NCBI RefSeq assembly: GCF_008974265.1
Contig: NZ_BKZW01000001.1
Coordinates: 310,001-374,000, forward strand
Direction of reading: 5' to 3'
Source of the DNA: Dictyobacter vulcani
Lineage (GTDB): Bacteria; Chloroflexota; Ktedonobacteria; Ktedonobacterales; Ktedonobacteraceae
DNA: 64,000 nucleotides
Shown here piece after piece: positions 41,478-50,507 of this stretch. The stretch's first letter is position 1. Every line of letters begins with the position of its first letter. The translations under genes and the position numbers were made by a program. The notes beneath the pieces were generated by a model. That model made no database searches, was not told where the DNA came from, and saw nothing but the letters and a program-made list of their open reading frames with translations.

Positions 41478-44400
41478 TTAGTCAGCATGCGCCCAGAAAG
41501 CTGCCAGACGGGTACGTACAAGCAGGAGGGTAGTTGCCAGCACAACGAGCAGGATGCCAAGCAGGAAAAGAGCCATGAAGGTGGGAATACCTAGTGATGG
41601 AAGAAACAGGACATGGATCGCAGCTACGATTACTAGCGCCGCCGAACTAAGCACAAAGACACGGATGCGTGTAATAAAGCCAAGCAGCAACAAGAGGATT
41701 GATTCACCCGTGAGTAGAAGTGAAGGAGCAACATTACTATACTGAAAGCTAAGCACGAGGGTCGGACCTAATAATAAGCATGCTCCAGCAATCGAACAAA
41801 GCTGGCCAACATTCTCATGCTCAGCAATCTTCTCGTCGCGGCTAATAAAAGGCGCGATGACGATAAAGTATACAGCCGGCGAGGCACAGAGCAGTGTCAA
41901 TTCAGCCTGACCAAGGGCCCACAATTCCCAACTGATCGTCAATGAACACAGGAATCCCACCACGTAGAACGCTCGATGGCGGTGGGCAGGCTCAGTTTGT
42001 AACCAGCCCCACCAGGCGACCAAAACGGCCAGAACCAGCAGGGAGATTGCTCCAGCATGCGAGATGGCGCCACCATTGAATACGAAAAGGCCAGCAAAGA
42101 AGACTACAAGAAATTGCCCCAGCAGGGGTATAGCTCTGGATACCAGCGTAGCAGGTACAAAGAAGGTCAGAGGTGAACGAATCGACCAGATGTATTGGGT
42201 TGCAAAGAGAGCCAGGAAGAATATGCTCATCAGCTCCAGTTGTCCCCAAAGTGGTATCGACAGGTGCACAATCGTCCATATTGCGAGCAAAGCCACTAGC
42301 ACACTTAATTCCGGAAGTCGCTCCAGGGCCATCACACAGAATGCCAGGATCGTGAACAGGGCGAACATTCCCACCATCACCGGCATCGATAAGTTGGTTC
42401 GCTGCCCCTCACTCCAGACACTGATAATCACAACATCACAAAGTGCCATGACATACCAGATCCAGCCCCAGGATCGTAGAGCGAGGCCAGACGAGAGGCG
42501 CTCCAGGCGTAGAATGATGGCTCCCAGGATACAATAGAGCAGCACACCACTAGTCAAAACGGCGAGTACCAATTGTGTCTGTTGCTGACAATTCACCCCA
42601 CCAATAATTGGTAGCTGAACAAGCCGGGAGCAGGTCACGATAGAGGGTAACAAGAGCATGCCCCAGATAATAAAGAGAGCCACCAGCCACAGTCCTGATT
42701 TCTTACGCTCCAGGAGTGAAATGCTATATGCTGTCAAAGCATAGAAAAAAAGGAACAATGGGATCGCGGCGTAAAATGGTACATTCACGCCTTTAAACAT
42801 ACCCTGGATACCAGTCAGGATGGCGGCAAAGAGGGCTGTTGTATACAGTGGTAAAACATAGCGTATCCGATGATGGCGTTGCTGGCCTATACTTGCGTCA
42901 AAAAAACCAGAGCGCAGTGAGCGCACCCCAACACCTACAACAGCAAAGGTCAATGTTAATACTGGCGGTCGATAAAAGTCTCCCACCACTCCGGCCATAT
43001 AGATAGCCCAGCAAGCCAGGACAACAGATATCCATAAGATGGCTACCTGTAACAGTTCATTGCGTTCAATTACACCAGTTAGATAGACGAGCAGCGCAAA
43101 GAAAAGCAAGGACCATGATGCTGCCTGACTCCATCCCTGCATGGTTCCCTGGATTCCCATCATGAGCGCGGCCCCAATTGCCACTACATACCAGGGTAGG
43201 GCCCACTTCACAGTGGCTAAGCGACGCATTGTGATAGCTAGCAGCAAAGTAACAACAGCCACACCAGTCAACCACCAGTACTGATTACCCGGCATCAACA
43301 GCGCAACCAGACCAAAGAGAGTAGCAATAACCAGTTGCAATCTCCCATCATCAATGGCAGCAGCCACATACCAGACCGATGCCAGCAGGGCTAATTCTAA
43401 TGTAAAGGCGGCAGAGAAAGAGAACCAGTTGCTCAGGATTGCTTGTGGAGCACTATACTCGAGCAAACCAAAGGCGACACCATATAAAACTGCCAGCACA
43501 TATGCTGCCCAGGAACGAGACAAAGCCTTACCATTACCCATTGATAAAGTAGCTGATCGCCGCTTTTCCCAGCGCCCAAAACCGGATGCCAGTAACGGCG
43601 TCAACAAGCTCAAAAGCAAAAAGAGGGAAACTTGATGGGTCAGTGGATACAGGGAGATGAGTGCCAAACCAATGGGTAACAGTAACCAGCCATTCTGCCG
43701 CAGATAATATGCCAGGGCATACGAACTAATAATGTACAGCAGCAGGAGCGCAATCAGGCTTTCTGTCGGAAGACCCAGACCCAGCATGATCGATTCCAGT
43801 GCTACGCACAGAGCCAGGATAGCCAGTGGATACGCCCAGGTATTATGTGTCCATCTATAGACAAAACAGGCAGCCCCGGCCGCTCCCAGCGCGAACCAGC
43901 ATAATCCCCAACTCAGTGGAAGATGGGTTCCCAACAACACCTGGGCATATGCATCATTTAAGATCAGTCCTGCCAGCAATAAAAGCCAGGTCCAGGGAAC
44001 CTGCTCGCGTGTAAGGGATTTCCGCCAGCCAACATGATTGCTAACCACGCCACAAAGGAGCGCGCTACCAACAAACAACGTCACTAACACAACGGGAAAC
44101 CACATACCTGTCACCAGAGAAGAGGTAAACATTAACGGGTACTGGTATGTCTGAAAGAAGAGTTGGAGGATGATAGCTGGATCACTGAGATAAGCCACCA
44201 GGACCACCAGCGCCACTACCAGAATATCTAACTGCTTGACGACAGCTTTGAACGGTCCGCTGCCCTGTAAAAGCTGCCGAGCTATATACCAGTAACAGGC
44301 AGCAAGTATGGTCAGTACGAGTATAAACCCGATAATAGCAACCTGGATCAGAGCAAGTAATGAGCATATCCAGACCAGAAGCAGATACGGGACCAATTGG

Positions 44401-45566
44401 GCCAGCATGTATTTTCTGGTTTGCCAGATATACAAACATACCCAGATTAATAAGACGAATAAAAAAACTGAGCACGAAAAACGTAACTCTCTATCAATCG
44501 TATGAGACAATAATCCAAACAGATAAACGACGAAGGAACCCAGTATTTCTATACAGACACTTACTGCCACAGAAGCATACAACAGGAATAACCCGGGTTT
44601 ACGCAAGAGCTCTCTGCCACTGTTATTACTAGGGGAGGCCGCATGTGCTCGCCGCACAAAGCCAAGCATGGGAAATGCCAGCAACAAGAAGATACAGGGC
44701 CACCAATACACTTGTAGATGGAAGGCTGCAGCAACCGCTACATCGGTAACCGCCAGTGAAACCGCTGCCAGATAACCAAATGGCTGAAAGCGTTGATAGA
44801 TCGCCAATGAACCATAGGCCAGCGTGGCATAGGTCGCCGCGATAGCAATCAACATTGCCGGTGTCAGTTGTATATCACTGACCATGCGATAAAATGAGAA
44901 GCCCACCAGTGGTACTTGTAAGGCAAAAATGGCAGTATAGATGATGGAAACAATGCGCACCTGAGGAAAGCGAAAGGTAATCGCACCAGTTGCGCCAAAG
45001 AAGGCATGTACCCCCAATAAGACCAGAAAAGCAAGCAGAAGATCTGAAGTTGTGGCAATAAAACTTAAAGATCCAACGAGGATCAAAAACGCTCCCAATG
45101 AAGCAACAATATTAATTGATTGATCGGCAAAAAAATCCTGGAATGAAAATGCTGATTTTGCAGCAGGCGCAGACAACGGTCGGGTTTGCGCTCGACGCGG
45201 TGGTGATAAGGGGTTGGAGGCTGGCTCTTGACTAACCGCTGGTGTTGTAAGTTCCCCACCAGTAGACGAGGAAGCTTGTGAAGATATTGGTGATTCTTCA
45301 GCATCCGAGGCTTGTTTTTTTGCTTCAGCAACTGGCTGATTTTGCACCTTACTCAGGTACGACAAACGACGCTGATAGCGGCTCATAAGATCTGAGATAC
45401 TTAGAGCGGCTCCCCCAAAGGTTACCACCCGTCCCAGGTCAAGGAGAGATTGTTCCAAAAAATGCTTTTCTTTGGTAAGCTCCGTCGGATAGCCACAGCG
45501 TGGACAATCCTGACTGCTGGCAATGGATAAACCACAGCAGTCACAATAGGTTACGTATCGTTGCAT
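41478..45566 (-). CDS. Giant polytopic membrane protein with N-terminal zinc ribbon
   Basis: 1362 residues. An N-terminal zinc ribbon (YCDCCGLSIASSQDCPRCGYPTEL, two CxxC pairs) is followed by a helical piece and a Ser/Pro/Ala-rich linker (to about residue 135). The remainder is almost entirely hydrophobic, with roughly 35-40 predicted membrane segments and short loops, no soluble catalytic domain, and few charged residues inside helices. The architecture resembles long DUF2157/DUF2339-like bacterial membrane proteins, but no signature is certain. Leftward single gene; the start at 45566 follows a plausible AGGAG-type site (revcomp of CTCCTTA). Function unknown. Confidence 0.65.
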   Translation of the reverse strand: MQRYVTYCDCCGLSIASSQDCPRCGYPTELTKEKHFLEQSLLDLGRVVTFGGAALSISDLMSRYQRRLSYLSKVQNQPVAEAKKQASDAEESPISSQASSSTGGELTTPAVSQEPASNPLSPPRRAQTRPLSAPAAKSAFSFQDFFADQSINIVASLGAFLILVGSLSFIATTSDLLLAFLVLLGVHAFFGATGAITFRFPQVRIVSIIYTAIFALQVPLVGFSFYRMVSDIQLTPAMLIAIAATYATLAYGSLAIYQRFQPFGYLAAVSLAVTDVAVAAAFHLQVYWWPCIFLLLAFPMLGFVRRAHAASPSNNSGRELLRKPGLFLLYASVAVSVCIEILGSFVVYLFGLLSHTIDRELRFSCSVFLFVLLIWVCLYIWQTRKYMLAQLVPYLLLVWICSLLALIQVAIIGFILVLTILAACYWYIARQLLQGSGPFKAVVKQLDILVVALVVLVAYLSDPAIILQLFFQTYQYPLMFTSSLVTGMWFPVVLVTLFVGSALLCGVVSNHVGWRKSLTREQVPWTWLLLLAGLILNDAYAQVLLGTHLPLSWGLCWFALGAAGAACFVYRWTHNTWAYPLAILALCVALESIMLGLGLPTESLIALLLLYIISSYALAYYLRQNGWLLLPIGLALISLYPLTHQVSLFLLLSLLTPLLASGFGRWEKRRSATLSMGNGKALSRSWAAYVLAVLYGVAFGLLEYSAPQAILSNWFSFSAAFTLELALLASVWYVAAAIDDGRLQLVIATLFGLVALLMPGNQYWWLTGVAVVTLLLAITMRRLATVKWALPWYVVAIGAALMMGIQGTMQGWSQAASWSLLFFALLVYLTGVIERNELLQVAILWISVVLACWAIYMAGVVGDFYRPPVLTLTFAVVGVGVRSLRSGFFDASIGQQRHHRIRYVLPLYTTALFAAILTGIQGMFKGVNVPFYAAIPLFLFFYALTAYSISLLERKKSGLWLVALFIIWGMLLLPSIVTCSRLVQLPIIGGVNCQQQTQLVLAVLTSGVLLYCILGAIILRLERLSSGLALRSWGWIWYVMALCDVVIISVWSEGQRTNLSMPVMVGMFALFTILAFCVMALERLPELSVLVALLAIWTIVHLSIPLWGQLELMSIFFLALFATQYIWSIRSPLTFFVPATLVSRAIPLLGQFLVVFFAGLFVFNGGAISHAGAISLLVLAVLVAWWGWLQTEPAHRHRAFYVVGFLCSLTISWELWALGQAELTLLCASPAVYFIVIAPFISRDEKIAEHENVGQLCSIAGACLLLGPTLVLSFQYSNVAPSLLLTGESILLLLLGFITRIRVFVLSSAALVIVAAIHVLFLPSLGIPTFMALFLLGILLVVLATTLLLVRTRLAAFWAHAD

Positions 45567-45744: not shown

Positions 45745-45773
45745 TTGACAAAAAGCAATAAATAGGTTACGCT
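45745..45773 (+). promoter_or_regulatory. Promoter of the ABC exporter leader
   Basis: TTGACA (45745-45750), a 17-bp spacer and TACGCT (45768-45773). A transcript starting near 45780 would carry the leader peptide frame at 45821 and the attenuator. Confidence 0.5.
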
Positions 45774-45820
45774 TCTTTTACCTAAAAAAGAAATATACAT
45801 CTGGAAACTTCAGGAGTATT

Positions 45821-45940
45821 ATGCAACGTACGACAACCCTCAACTTCTGGCTGGATCTGCGCCACCCCGGTGGGCTGCCTTCCCACGCCCACAGTCGTAC
45901 TATGCCTGTTTATCGGTACTTTTCTTTCAACTTCTGCTAA
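45821..45940 (+). CDS. 39-residue leader peptide of an ABC exporter attenuator
   Basis: ATG 45821 with a CAGGAG site 6 nt upstream. The peptide begins MQRTTTLNFWLDLRHPGG and ends YRYFSFNFC, then TAA. It lies wholly in the leader of the exporter operon. Codons 23-26 overlap the 5' arm of the antiterminator hairpin, so ribosome position would decide which hairpin forms. No similarity to a functional protein is evident. It is too short for automatic gene calling. Confidence 0.6.
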   Translation: MQRTTTLNFWLDLRHPGGLPSHAHSRTMPVYRYFSFNFC

Positions 45941-45990
45941 ACCACTGAACACGACTGTGGACGACCTGATTGAAGTCCATGGTTTTTTTT
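45889..45990 (+). promoter_or_regulatory. Antiterminator/terminator switch upstream of the ABC exporter
   Basis: Antiterminator: CCACAGTCGT (45889-45898) pairs perfectly with ACGACTGTGG (45951-45960). Terminator: ACTGTGGAC (45954-45962) pairs with GTCCATGGT (45975-45983, two G-U pairs), followed by a T8 run ending at 45990. The two structures share 45954-45960 and exclude each other. The intrinsic terminator lies about 105 bp before the exporter start, the standard layout of translation-controlled attenuation. Confidence 0.65.
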
Positions 45991-46094
45991 ATGTCTGCTT
46001 TCAGACCTCAGCGTGTATTGACCACTAAAATCATGGCATAACCCACGCCTTTTTTGTCGTCTTGTCGTCTTATTGCTCACTGAAAGGAGCTTCT

Positions 46095-47840
46095 ATGCGC
46101 ATTCCGCTCAAAGATTATCGGGATCTTTTATGGCGCTATCTCTCACCTCAACGTATACGAGTCCTCTTATTGGTATTATTACTCTGTGCTGAAATAACGT
46201 TACAACTCATTAATCCGCAATTTTTGCGCATGTTTATTGATACAGTCACCTCAAGTGGACCGCAGTCATCATTGCTGGGAGTAGCTATCCTCTTTATTGT
46301 GGTAGCTATCTTCCAACAACTCATAACTATTGCCGCCACCTATATCAGTGAAGTAGTGGGCTGGCGCGCTACAAATGCCCTTCGTGCCGACCTTGCACTC
46401 CATCTGGTCAAGATGGATATGTCTTTTCACAAGGTCCATACACCAGGTGAGTTAATCGAGCGCGTGGATGGAGATGTGACCAATCTGGCAAATTTCTTCT
46501 CCCAGTTCGTGATCAAGATTCTGGGTGGACTGCTACTCTTGATTGGGATCCTGGTGGTGCTCTGGTATACAGAATGGCATGTCGGACTGGTGCTGAGTCT
46601 CTTCGCCTGCGTGGCATTAGTCGCTATCAACAGTGCTCGCAGCATTGCCGTGAAGCCCTGGAAAACCTTTCGCCAGCTAAGTGCAGAACTCTTTGGTTTT
46701 TTAGAAGAGAGGCTACGTGGTACAGAGGATATCCGCTCCAGTGGTGCCCAACCCTATATCATGCGTCGGCTATTGATGCTCACGCGTAAGCGCTTCATCT
46801 ATGGTCGACAGGCACGCATCCTTTCATCTATTCCATGGAGTTTGCCAGCATTGTTTTTTGCGATTGGTTACATTATCGCTTTTAGCTTGATCGCATGGCT
46901 CTATAGCAGCAAAGGTATCAGTATCGGCGTCGCTTTCTTGATTTATTACTACACACAACAGCTCTCACAACCAATCATGATGATCTCAACCCAGTTGGAG
47001 GATTTTCAAAAGGCCAGCGCAGGCGTTGTGCGCGTGAATGAACTGATGGCACTGCGTAGCCAGCTGAAGGATGGATCAGGCGCGGTCCTGCCGGCTGGTG
47101 CGTTGAGCGTCGATTTTGAACAGGTAAGCTTTGGCTATGAAGATGAAGAACTGGTACTGGACGATATCTCTTTACAAATACAGCCAGGCGAAGTATTGGG
47201 ACTCCTGGGCCGAACTGGTAGTGGAAAAACGACTATTACACGGCTACTCTTCCGTCTCTATGAGCCAGCATCCGGCAGTATTAAGCTAGGGGGAGTCGAC
47301 CTGGCTCAGGCCCGCCTGGCCGATATACGCCAGCATATCGGGATTGTGACACAGGATGTGCAGCTCTTCTACGCCACGGTACGTGACAATTTGACGCTTT
47401 TCGATTCCAGCATTGCTGATCAAAAAATCCAACAGGCGCTGCAGGACCTGGGTCTGACGGACTGGTATGACAAATTAGAGAATGGGTTGGATACAATGCT
47501 GGCAGCCAATGGTGGGGGACTCTCAGCCGGGGAAGCTCAATTGCTCGCCTTTACCCGTGTCTTCCTGCGCGATCCCGGCCTGATTATTCTGGATGAAGCA
47601 TCATCACGCCTGGATCCAGTCACTGAACAGTTAATTGAAAAGGCTATAAGCAGATTACTGGCTGGCAGAACTGCGATTATTATCGCGCATCGACTTGGCA
47701 CGGTGAAACGCGCCGATACCATTCTGATCATGGAAGCCGGTCACATTGCTGAATATGGAGACCGAAAAATTCTGCAAGAAGATACCCGTTCCCGTTTCGC
47801 ACAACTCTTGCTTACTGCTCAGGAAGAGGTACATGCATGA
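46095..47840 (+). CDS. ABC exporter, first subunit (TMD-NBD)
   Basis: 581 residues from ATG 46095 (AAAGGAG site). Six membrane helices (about 20-310) of the type-IV exporter fold are followed by the nucleotide-binding domain: Walker [14 protein letters not shown]-loop, signature LSAGEAQ instead of LSGGQ, Walker [13 protein letters not shown] with catalytic Glu, and H-loop AHRL. It overlaps the second subunit by 4 nt (ATGA) and so probably forms a heterodimer. Exporters of this type move drugs, lipids or peptides outward. The leader attenuator hints at induction by a compound that slows translation. Confidence 0.9.
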
Positions 47841-49621
47841 AAACCTGGCAATTTTTCCTTGGCCTTATACGCTTTCGCCCCTGGAACTATAGCTTAAATT
47901 GTCTATCAATTATAGCGGTGCTGCTTTTTGAAATGGTGACTGGACTGGTTGGCCGAGAGTTTTTCAATCGCCTGACCGCCAGACCAGCAGTTGAGATGGG
48001 ACTCTGGTGGCTGATCGCGCTTTTATTAGGCTCAACGGCAGGTCGTATCGCTGGCTTAGTAGGATGCCAGTTCACGAACTCACCATTTATTCTCTGCAAC
48101 ACAGCCCTGCTGCAAAAGAATATCCTGTCTCGCATTCTTGAATTGCCGGGCGCACACGCCCTGCCAGCATCATCTGGAGAAGCCATCAGTCGTTTGCGTG
48201 ATGATGTAGATGAAAATGCTGTTTTTTTAATGGTATTTAATGATCTGATCGCCCTTACAAGTTTTGCCATCATTGCTCTGATCGTAATGCTCCAGATTAA
48301 CCCGGTCATTACGCTGGCCATTTTCTTGCCCTTAGCGGCCATCACCGCGACGGTAAATATTGCCAGTGTGCAGATTAAAAAGCGCCGTGATGCAAATCGT
48401 CGGGCTACTGGAGATGTTACAGGCTTCCTTGGAGAACTCTTTGGCGCAGTACAGGCTATTCAAATTGCTAATGCGGAAGAACAAGCCATCCAGCATTTTA
48501 AGGGACTCAATCAAAAACGTATGGAGATGACGGTACGTGACCGCATTTTTGATCAGGTCATGCAGTCCTTTTTCGCCAACACTGTCAGCCTGGGCACAGG
48601 CATAATCTTACTCCTTGCCAGTCAGACCATGCATGCCGGCACCTTTACGATCGGAGACTTTGCACTTTTCGTGTATTATCTGGGCTGGATCACCGAGTTC
48701 ACTACCCTCTTTGGGGGCGTACTGACACACTATAAACAGGCAGGCGTTTCAGTAGAACGTATGTTGACCTTACTCAAAGGAGCACCGGCCCACACATTGA
48801 TTCAGCCAGGCCCCATCTATACAAAAGGTCCTTTTCCAGAGGTGCCGGAAATCCCACATATTGGAGAGAATCGACTTCAATATCTGACCACCAGCAATCT
48901 GACTTACCATTATCCCGATAGTTCTCATGGCATTGAAGAGATTAACCTGCGCCTGGAACAGGGTTCATTCACAGTGATTACCGGGCGCATTGGGGCTGGC
49001 AAAACCACACTCTTGCAAACATTATTGGGCCTTTTGCCCAGGGAAAAAGGTGATATTTTTTGGAATGGAAAGGTTATTACTGATCCGGCTACGTTCTTTA
49101 TCCCACCCTATAGTGCTTATACTTCGCAGGTACCACATTTGTTCAGTGATACCTTGCGTGATAATATCCTGCTAGGATTACCTGACGATGAGCACAAAAT
49201 TCAGGAAGCACTGCGCCTGGCGGTGCTTGAGCCTGATATTGCTGAAATGAGTGAAGGTCTCAAAACACTGGTCGGACCAAAGGGGGTGCGACTTTCAGGT
49301 GGACAGATCCAACGTTCCGCGGCAGCCAGAATGTTCGTTCGACCAGCTAATCTGCTCGTGGTAGATGATCTATCCAGCGCCCTTGATATCGAGACCGAAG
49401 GCTTACTCTGGCAACGCATCTTTGCACAAAAGGACCGCACGGTCCTGGCGGTCTCTCATCGCAGGACCGCTCTGCGCCAGGCCGACCAGATTATCGTCCT
49501 TAAAGACGGAAGAATAGACGCACAGGGAAAACTTGATGACTTACTCGCTCATAACAGAGAAATGCAGCACCTCTGGCATGGGCAAAGCCACGCGTTTCAG
49601 AACGAAGAAATCCTCATGTAA
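47837..49621 (+). CDS. ABC exporter, second subunit (TMD-NBD, degenerate Walker B)
   Basis: 594 residues. Six membrane helices are followed by the NBD with Walker [15 protein letters not shown], canonical signature [15 protein letters not shown], and Walker [13 protein letters not shown]. Here the usual catalytic Glu is Asp. Together with the altered LSAGE signature in subunit 1, this predicts one degenerate and one competent ATP site, as in TM287/288-like heterodimeric exporters: the degenerate site combines this Walker B with the partner's signature. Coupled to subunit 1 by ATGA. Ends before a strong terminator. Confidence 0.9.
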
Positions 49622-49663: not shown

Positions 49664-49712
49664 ATCCTAGTAGTGAGACTAGCAAATCGCTAATCTCACT
49701 ACTAGGATTTTG
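49664..49712 (+). terminator. Terminator of the ABC exporter operon
   Basis: Perfect 15-bp stem ATCCTAGTAGTGAGA (49664-49678) / TCTCACTACTAGGAT (49694-49708), followed by TTTTG. Confidence 0.75.
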
Positions 49713-49745
49713 CTAATCCTTCTTGAGAAAGGAAATACGTATCTC

Positions 49746-50507
49746 ATGAATACAAATGATGATCGGTCGCTCGATAATGCTAAATCTAACTTGCTTGAAA
49801 TGATTTCCGCTCAGCGCGCACGACGTACTGTTCTCAAAGGAGCTGTAGCTGGCCTGGCTTCACTCTCTGCATTAGGAACAAGTGCGTTAGTCGGATCAGG
49901 AGAAGTATTTGCAGATAGCTCACGTTCAAAGCTCCAAAAAATCCTAGATGTTCTTGTCACGACTGAACAGCTGGCAGTCACTACCTATAGCAATGCTGTT
50001 ACCAATGCTGCAACCCTGGGAATCACTGGAGACAATCTGACATATCTACAGACGGCCCTCATAGAAGAGCAGCTTCACGAACTCTTCCTTGAGTCCCTGG
50101 GCGCTCAAGCCGTTAGCAGCTCTTTCAGTTATCCAAATGGCGCGACAACCTTCACTGATCTCACAACATTCATTGATTCACAACAGGCTCTTGAGAATGC
50201 CTTTGCTTCTGTCTATCTGAATGCTATCGTCGAAGTTGCCAAGCTCAATGGATATCGCATGGCACAGATCTTCAGCCAGATTGCCTGTATTGAAGCTGAG
50301 CATCGTGTTTTGGGACGCTTCATTGCTGGAGCACAACCTGCGAACAACTATGCCTTTGCCCCCGTTCTCACGAAAAAGGTCTCAGAGACGACAGATGTAT
50401 TGAATACCGCTGGTTTCCTCACTCCTGCCACGGGTAATACCTATACCTATGCGCAAATCAGCACCAGCGCTCCTAACATCGAGTATCGCATGCCTTTTAC
50501 TGTCTAG
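49746..50507 (+). CDS. Ferritin-like domain protein with Tat signal
   Basis: 253 residues. The N-terminal region has a twin-arginine (RARRTVLKGAVAG) followed by a hydrophobic stretch and a cleavage region (EVFADSSRS), predicting Tat export. The mature part is a four-helix ferritin-like domain (PF13668 type): ILDVLVTTEQLAVTTYSNAV, LTYLQTALIEEQLHELFLESLG, and QIACIEAEHRVLGRFIAG, with Glu/His residues that could bind a di-iron centre. Such secreted proteins occur in Actinobacteria and Chloroflexota; their substrate is unknown. RBS AAAGGAAA. Confidence 0.82.
   Translation: MNTNDDRSLDNAKSNLLEMISAQRARRTVLKGAVAGLASLSALGTSALVGSGEVFADSSRSKLQKILDVLVTTEQLAVTTYSNAVTNAATLGITGDNLTYLQTALIEEQLHELFLESLGAQAVSSSFSYPNGATTFTDLTTFIDSQQALENAFASVYLNAIVEVAKLNGYRMAQIFSQIACIEAEHRVLGRFIAGAQPANNYAFAPVLTKKVSETTDVLNTAGFLTPATGNTYTYAQISTSAPNIEYRMPFTV

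Follow-up and report, generated by a model that had tools for sequence, protein, structure and literature searches.

The leader in front of two ABC half-transporter genes in the window (the whole 64,000-nt stretch of Dictyobacter vulcani DNA analysed here) is very probably a ribosome-mediated transcription attenuator that works with four RNA strands and feeds the exporter pair. The computed basis of this reading comprises the strands, their covariation, the reading frame, the family of related elements and the dependence of folding on ribosome position; termination and antitermination in the cell would be the expected outcome of these models. Across Ktedonobacteria and other Chloroflexota, we lean, with slightly more confidence than doubt, towards a broader view—that strands 2-3-4 form one plug-in module which has spread before unrelated genes, each copy carrying upstream sensor codons tuned to a different drug class or to leucine, and that the genome thereby holds a cis-wired translation-stress regulon without a master regulator.

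Layout of the leader and the exporter genes

The leader sits between a large divergent gene and the ABC pair, and its features, together with the genes that follow, are these:

45745–45773, + strand: likely promoter (TTGACA 45745–45750, 17-nt gap, TACGCT 45768–45773)
45812–45816, + strand: Shine-Dalgarno (SD) sequence AGGAG of the leader ORF, read from the sequence
45821–45940, + strand: leader ORF of 39 codons, MQRTTTLNFWLDLRHPGGLPSHAHSRTMPVYRYFSFNFC (ATG at 45821, stop at 45938–45940)
45823–45834, + strand: strand 1 (a), over the first leader codons, pairing with 45894–45905 (12 nt, 83%)
45870–45875, + strand: strand 1 (b), GTGGGC in codons 17–19, able to pair with 45887–45892
45882–45992, + strand: match to covariance models R1 and R2 (G000:C1:355882-355992)
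45887–45898, + strand: strand 2, the 5′ antiterminator arm, codons 23–26 (A-H-S-R)
45951–45962, + strand: strand 3, common to antiterminator and terminator
45975–45990, + strand: strand 4 with T8, intrinsic terminator
46095–47840, + strand: ABC half-transporter A, 581 aa (ABC_membrane, ABC_tran)
47837–49621, + strand: ABC half-transporter B, 594 aa, overlapping A by 4 nt (ABC_membrane, ABC_tran)

A preliminary description of this DNA had proposed the leader coordinates, the 39-codon frame and its SD, all of which hold on direct reading; the ORF at 45821–45940 was confirmed (100% at that place). A short ORF with an SD upstream of a regulated gene is what an attenuator should have, and here AGGAG forms a duplex of −6.9 kcal/mol with the anti-SD. 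An inverted repeat (45886–45898 with 45951–45963, 92%) contains a perfect 10-bp core, 45889–45898 with 45951–45960, which is the antiterminator; as had been claimed, its 5′ arm lies in codons 23–26. The overlapping intrinsic terminator was likewise borne out: GACUGUGGAC (45953–45962) pairs with GUCCAUGGUU (45975–45984), followed by T8 at 45983–45990. The same description had named a promoter, and a likely one is present—TTGACA and TACGCT stand at 17-nt spacing, TACGCT is a weak −10 when the sequence is read directly, and the promoter scan places this site nowhere among its predictions, giving another site instead. Absent from that description were a third pairing, of strand 1 with strand 2, and the occurrence of a family of such elements before many gene types. 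Counting against the attenuator reading, the folding energy of the leader alone was ordinary (z −1.21). Searches of Rfam 15 gave no matches in the window at the gathering score and, at 11 related loci, four matches that all fell below gathering scores.

Downstream, the two half-transporters already recognised from the sequence were confirmed by ABC_membrane and ABC_tran domains in both, and two adjacent TMD-NBD half-transporters are the arrangement of a heterodimeric type IV ABC exporter. The Walker B motif of half-transporter B reads VVDDLSS, with Asp where Glu is usual, presumably as in the degenerate sites of heterodimeric exporters. Among relatives of solved structure, ABCB1 appears for both proteins, and A additionally resembles YheH, taken here to be BmrD, TM_0288, and 5mkk_A, a chain of a multidrug exporter; no NCBIfam model among the 25 listed for either protein reaches its cutoff. 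The divergent gene (41478–45566, − strand) encodes a 1362-aa polytopic membrane protein with, by eye, a zinc-ribbon-like CxxC start at the N terminus, and neither Pfam nor NCBIfam gave it a match at E ≤ 0.01. Directly following the exporter pair, 49710–50507 encodes a Ferritin_2 domain protein whose N terminus looks signal-like by eye.

Conservation in exporter orthologs

With protein A as query, the 47 class genomes yielded orthologs of 81, 80, 70, 64, 64, 64, 62, 62, 61 and 59% identity. The three closest (L009, L010, and L011) share the same layout, with TTGACA before the leader, an SD, a leader ORF, both helices, and a U-run. Beyond these, several results count against uniform conservation: the exporter leaders of G031 and G036 keep frame and helices and show no clear U-run, those of G032–G034 retain the helices, lack a U-run and have the conserved frame closed, and two orthologs, L015 (62%) and L017 (61%), have no covariance-model match. 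Of the nine model-matching exporter orthologs, four are complete, and the other five lack a clear U-run. Conservation of frame and stems in relatives had been set beforehand as a test; the proposal survived it, with the exceptions of the closed frame in G032–G034 and of the five leaders without a clear U-run. A reading of L018 in another frame was rejected, leaving the closed frame confined to the exporter leaders of G032–G034. In L012 (G034) and L016 (G031), the 3:4 loop GAUGGUC is complementary to GACCAUC near the exporter start codon, and in these hairpins without a U-run, translation control may have replaced termination.

Among eight aligned exporter leaders, the antiterminator was paired in 85.9% of cells and the terminator in 97.2%, compared with 23–39% and 33–45%, respectively, when the same leaders were slid by one to three columns. 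The covariation score exceeded all 500 shuffles for both helices. Doubly changed pairs (three and two) lay within the shuffles, 345/500 and 180/500 of which reach them, and pair-type counts were not clearly above shuffles in either this alignment or the larger one of 56 members described below. Terminator and antiterminator are mutually exclusive and conserved, as an attenuator demands.

Searched against the 47 class genomes, the 39-aa leader peptide returned itself and two weak matches (E 0.09), and a plasmid search gave no more than three weak ones (E 3–5); these nearly empty results pointed to conservation at the RNA level. With 83 synonymous and 143 non-synonymous leader changes, the codon-position test, itself weak, gives little sign of peptide selection, and the strand 2 block A-H-S-R-T-M-P is conserved mainly as nucleotides. 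LDLRHPGG, once put forward as the peptide core, did not prove conserved: what the three closest orthologs have in common is no more than [P/R][G/A]G, shifted by one codon in L011.

A family of related modules

Covariance model R1 was built from the eight exporter leaders and R2 was rebuilt from 56 members. Besides exporter leaders, R1 gave many strong matches elsewhere in the same genomes. At E ≤ 0.001, R2 matched 23 of the 47 class genomes at 93 distinct places (100 matches in the class, less 7 overlapping stronger ones; the gene in G045 is unchecked), with up to 13 copies per genome (G032, overlaps removed). The module consensus is TCGCCCARGGCCRTACTATGCCCTTTTTCAGG, a variable middle, GGCCGTGGGCGA, a loop and TCGCCCACGGCCTTTTT.

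Outside the class, R2 matched 15 of 353–357 Chloroflexota genomes, mostly weakly, the sample being 400 drawn genomes of the phylum that included at least 43 of the 47 class genomes. The 66–71-nt matches in G056, G057, G101, G144, and G263 are probably unrelated hairpins, while the ones in G311 and G317 and several upstream of ABC genes appear genuine, judged by their leaders and genes. In G317, L233 has a leader ending AHGHAVPKFRR; in G311, L253 stands before an ABC exporter gene with the leader VVAHTHTAP; and in G299, L252 stands before a gene that is ABC-F-like by eye, with no leader passing the SD filter. Judging from these three loci, the module may predate the class or be mobile beyond it. 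In 30 genomes from other phyla, each with a protein A relative, R2 matched nothing, an empty answer that alone proves little.

Across the 56 members, pairing covered 82.1% of cells for 2:3 and 96.3% for 3:4, and the covariation scores of both exceeded all 500 shuffles, in an alignment that was itself fitted to 2:3. Doubly changed pairs were again not clearly above expectation (393/500 and 37/500 shuffles reach them). The conserved frame had an SD-led start in 43 of the 56 members, versus 21 and 11 for the other frames, with close relatives retained. In a swap test on 49 members, 2:3 was matched by 5/2000 permutations and 1:2 by none of 2000, a result to which relatedness contributes; against shuffled partners, 2:3 reached a mean z of −2.69 in the same 49. 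Counting against the third pairing, 1:2 was weak relative to shuffled upstream sequence (mean z −0.69; 11/49 below −1.5). A second pairing, 2b:3b, which joins ACTATGCCCTTTTTCAGG to the middle region, looked good in some copies and was rejected after failing the swap test (254/2000). The class-specific sensor signal was equalled by 0/2000 permutations, a result that common ancestry of element and gene may be enough to explain. Three leaders (L135, L137, and L264) carry two similar blocks, GHAMPI and AQ[SGA]xSVPI, within one ORF; L264 and L135/L232 stand before ABC ATPase genes.

Genes behind the module

Downstream genes were assigned by protein-family scans (12 proteins, 7 proteins, and LeuA) and otherwise by BLAST clusters, adjacency to a leuA match, or by eye (L213, L264, L265, and L266). 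Among the 93 places, MFS pumps were the most frequent (18; three scanned ones give sub-cutoff scores to Mef, Tet or Tap models), followed by ABC exporters (13, nine of them in the window exporter's ortholog group), acetyltransferases (12), other ABC ATPase genes, most then followed by a permease-like gene (11; type by eye), APH-type phosphotransferases (8), leuA (8), and SpoU RNA methylases (6; L178 has sub-cutoff scores for RlmB and NshR/TsnR models). Less common were S9/S15 hydrolases (4), a SAM methyltransferase (1), and a MOSC protein (1); four places have no gene assigned, one of them unchecked. The window's own genome, G000, holds six distinct copies—three before MFS genes, one before a phosphotransferase, one before an acetyltransferase, and the one before this exporter. 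At one of its loci (L148, G000:C1, behind 4178454), the MFS frame is split into two ORFs of 309 and 104 aa, which may mean a broken gene.

The remaining seven places precede a family without assignment (L159, L161, L164, L166, L170, L176, and L200), of about 260–290 aa with a DYWDWSYL-like motif. Its only scanned member, L161, had no Pfam or NCBIfam match; by eye, the family resembles SAM methyltransferases, and it may represent a candidate unrecognised resistance gene. L175 (G031) has a leader like those of this family with no long same-strand ORF directly behind it, and is perhaps an orphan element left after gene loss.

Copies before leuA as an internal control

The gene at L216:700-2418 encodes a 2-isopropylmalate synthase (TIGR00970, 744.7 bits, cutoff 697.4). 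Among 16 leuA matches in 15 class genomes, seven have an R2 match just upstream (G022, G031, G032, G033, G034, G035, and G043), and in G021 an eighth copy stands before a leuA-like gene; leuA of G000 and of the other four Dictyobacter-group genomes has none. In the conserved frame, the leuA leaders include ELTLPGLGLLLMRVVQG (G032–G034), SSLLELLSLRCVAQG, and, in further copies, ELTLPGLTLLLMRVVRG, SSLLELRSLTLRCVAQG, NSLLGLGLLLTCVAHS, and NLLGLGLLTLTYVAQG, with strand 2 encoding the last residues of these peptides. In four leuA leaders, three of which share one peptide, the 12 codons leading up to strand 2 include 5, 5, 5, and 6 for Leu; 69 other leaders average 1.04 and never exceed 4. A leucine attenuator is marked by Leu-rich codons where the ribosome stalls, and because the leuA copies carry them there, the module appears to read ribosome position just upstream of strand 2. 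The window's putative sensor stretch, L11–S21, occupies the same position.

Ribosome position and folding in silico

Folding was computed under assumptions about footprint size and equilibrium, with one model stopping at strand 4 and the other comprising the full leader. With the window's RNA extending up to strand 4, the ribosome-free state had 2:3 at 0.22 and 1:2 at 0.68. Placing the P site at codons 7–17 raised 2:3 to 0.84–0.87, whereas at codons 19–26 it was 0.01 or less, the zero value with the ribosome on strand 2 being so by construction. The claim that a stall before about codon 19 frees the arm therefore agrees with folding (0.87 at codon 17, 0.01 at codon 19). In the full leader, the terminator stood at 0.95 without a ribosome, and a ribosome at codons 4–13 gave mainly 2:3. 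Two features of this model count against a clean switch: at codon 16 the terminator reached 0.57 versus 0.36 for 2:3, making the transition less sharp, and 2:3 rose again to 0.23 once the ribosome had passed strand 2 (+8).

Other family members were less regular. Of 66 leaders modelled up to strand 4, 47 reached 2:3 of at least 0.5 with a ribosome upstream; against general position dependence, only 25 gained more than 0.2, and 24 formed 2:3 without a ribosome, so that their off state lies beyond the simple model and RNA polymerase timing must matter. Also unfavourable are the full-leader results, in which the terminator exceeded 0.5 at every upstream position in 9/15 leaders, including the 80% ortholog L125, and L126 was antiterminated without a ribosome. 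The leuA leader L215 reached 0.91 for 2:3 when the ribosome stood at codons −13 to −6, the stretch holding most of its Leu codons, versus 0.06 when free; another, L222, counts against the scheme with 2:3 at 0.80 ribosome-free. Pairing thus depends on ribosome position in the window, in silico only, and in a part of the family.

Proposed mechanism and alternative explanations

In an untranslated leader, strand 1 (the leader start region and codons 17–19) would pair with strand 2 (codons 23–26), leaving strand 3 free for strand 4, and transcription would end at T8. This third pairing is needed because the off state without translation must be explained. A freely moving ribosome would also mask strand 2 and so favour the terminator. 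If translation slows or stops before roughly codon 18, the ribosome would instead break 1:2 and free strand 2, allowing 2:3 to form before strand 4 is made, and RNA polymerase would continue into the exporter pair. With other upstream codons, the strand 2-3-4 module would serve other resistance-type genes and, with leucine codons, leuA. The natural stall signal, we infer from gene context, would be a ribosome-targeting antibiotic removed by the exporter; genes behind the module are mostly pumps, drug-modifying enzyme families, and RNA methylases.

That same context is what weighs on the most serious alternative, in which the leader responds to scarcity of an amino acid or charged tRNA and the exporter moves a metabolite or peptide. 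The module's presence before leuA with Leu-rich leaders speaks for it, as do the three Leu in the 12 codons before strand 2 of the window (four and three in the close orthologs L118 and L125, against the non-leuA mean of 1.04). We nevertheless consider it unlikely, since L11–S21 contains no run of a single amino acid (L7, L11, L13, and L19 are not adjacent, and the run of Leu codons expected of a leucine attenuator is missing from the window's leader), L123, L124, and L126 have 1, 0, and 1 Leu, and most copies precede pumps, phosphotransferases, acetyltransferases, and RNA methylases.

Two further accounts dispense with a sensing ribosome. A plain regulatory terminator behind a chance or vestigial ORF, with read-through set by terminator strength or a protein in the manner of patAB (see below), would explain why conservation is highest in the terminator (96.3% of cells) and why the frame can be closed in G032–G034; it is very improbable given that the alternative helix covaries, that one frame is preferred (43/21/11 of 56), and that Leu-rich codons lie in precisely that frame before leuA. 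The idea of a ligand-binding riboswitch, with the conserved strand 2 block and ACTATGCCCTTTTTCAGG as its aptamer, draws on the behaviour of block codons 5, 6, and 8, whose third positions hardly vary while first or second positions do. Yet no further conserved paired element was seen, 2b:3b failing its swap test; the SD-led frame runs through the block, the block persists in the leuA copies, whose sensor codons are different, and Rfam gives no match, which together make an aptamer extremely improbable.

Comparison with known systems

In the leucine and tryptophan attenuators, strands pair as 1:2, 2:3, and 3:4, and a ribosome stalled on strand 1 leads to antitermination. The module follows the same strand logic, with Leu-rich codons in its leuA copies, and differs in that strand 2 lies inside the ORF and strands 2-4 also serve resistance-type genes. 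Among ABC-F genes, vmlR and msrD also have ribosome-mediated attenuators; ABC-F attenuators resemble the window in leader ORF and switch and control a different target family. To our knowledge, drug-sensing leaders have so far mostly been described gene by gene. If the module is shared as proposed, the leuA copies show what the sensor position reads, so that the exchange of stalling codons in evolution becomes testable, as do, through their leaders, the drugs answered by unknown resistance-type genes. The module would also be a search handle for unrecognised resistance genes such as the DYWDWSYL-like family behind seven copies, in a class noted, in the part of the source consulted, for its secondary-metabolite potential (PMC6497799).

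The closest parallel is bmrB-bmrC-bmrD of Bacillus subtilis, induced by the 50S-targeting drugs lincomycin, erythromycin, and chloramphenicol and dependent on bmrB translation, according to sections that also summarise the trp attenuator (PMC4191407). There too, the genes of a heterodimeric multidrug ABC exporter follow a leader ORF that is translated, and the leader can form a terminator or alternative stem-loops, a likeness in layout; unlike in the window, the bmrB leader has 53 codons with the terminator inside the ORF, and those sections do not mention sharing of the module with other genes (PMC4191407). The ABC-F gene lmrC is described, in the excerpt seen, as having a leader ORF and a terminator/antiterminator switch set by drug-bound ribosomes (PMC8546547). 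The uORF toiL of E. coli senses several classes of ribosome-targeting drugs and, as far as the consulted text goes, acts on translation and on Rho termination, whereas the window's leader has an intrinsic terminator (PMC12121999). In Streptococcus pneumoniae, terminator mutations raise expression of patAB, like the window's exporter an ABC transporter under a leader terminator; the abstract of that report does not mention a leader peptide (PMC4319486). Among the matches listed in a search of open-licence literature, no report of the module was found. The principle is known from bmrB-bmrCD, the ABC-F genes, and the leu/trp attenuators; the new part is one module with exchangeable sensor codons standing before about a dozen gene families.
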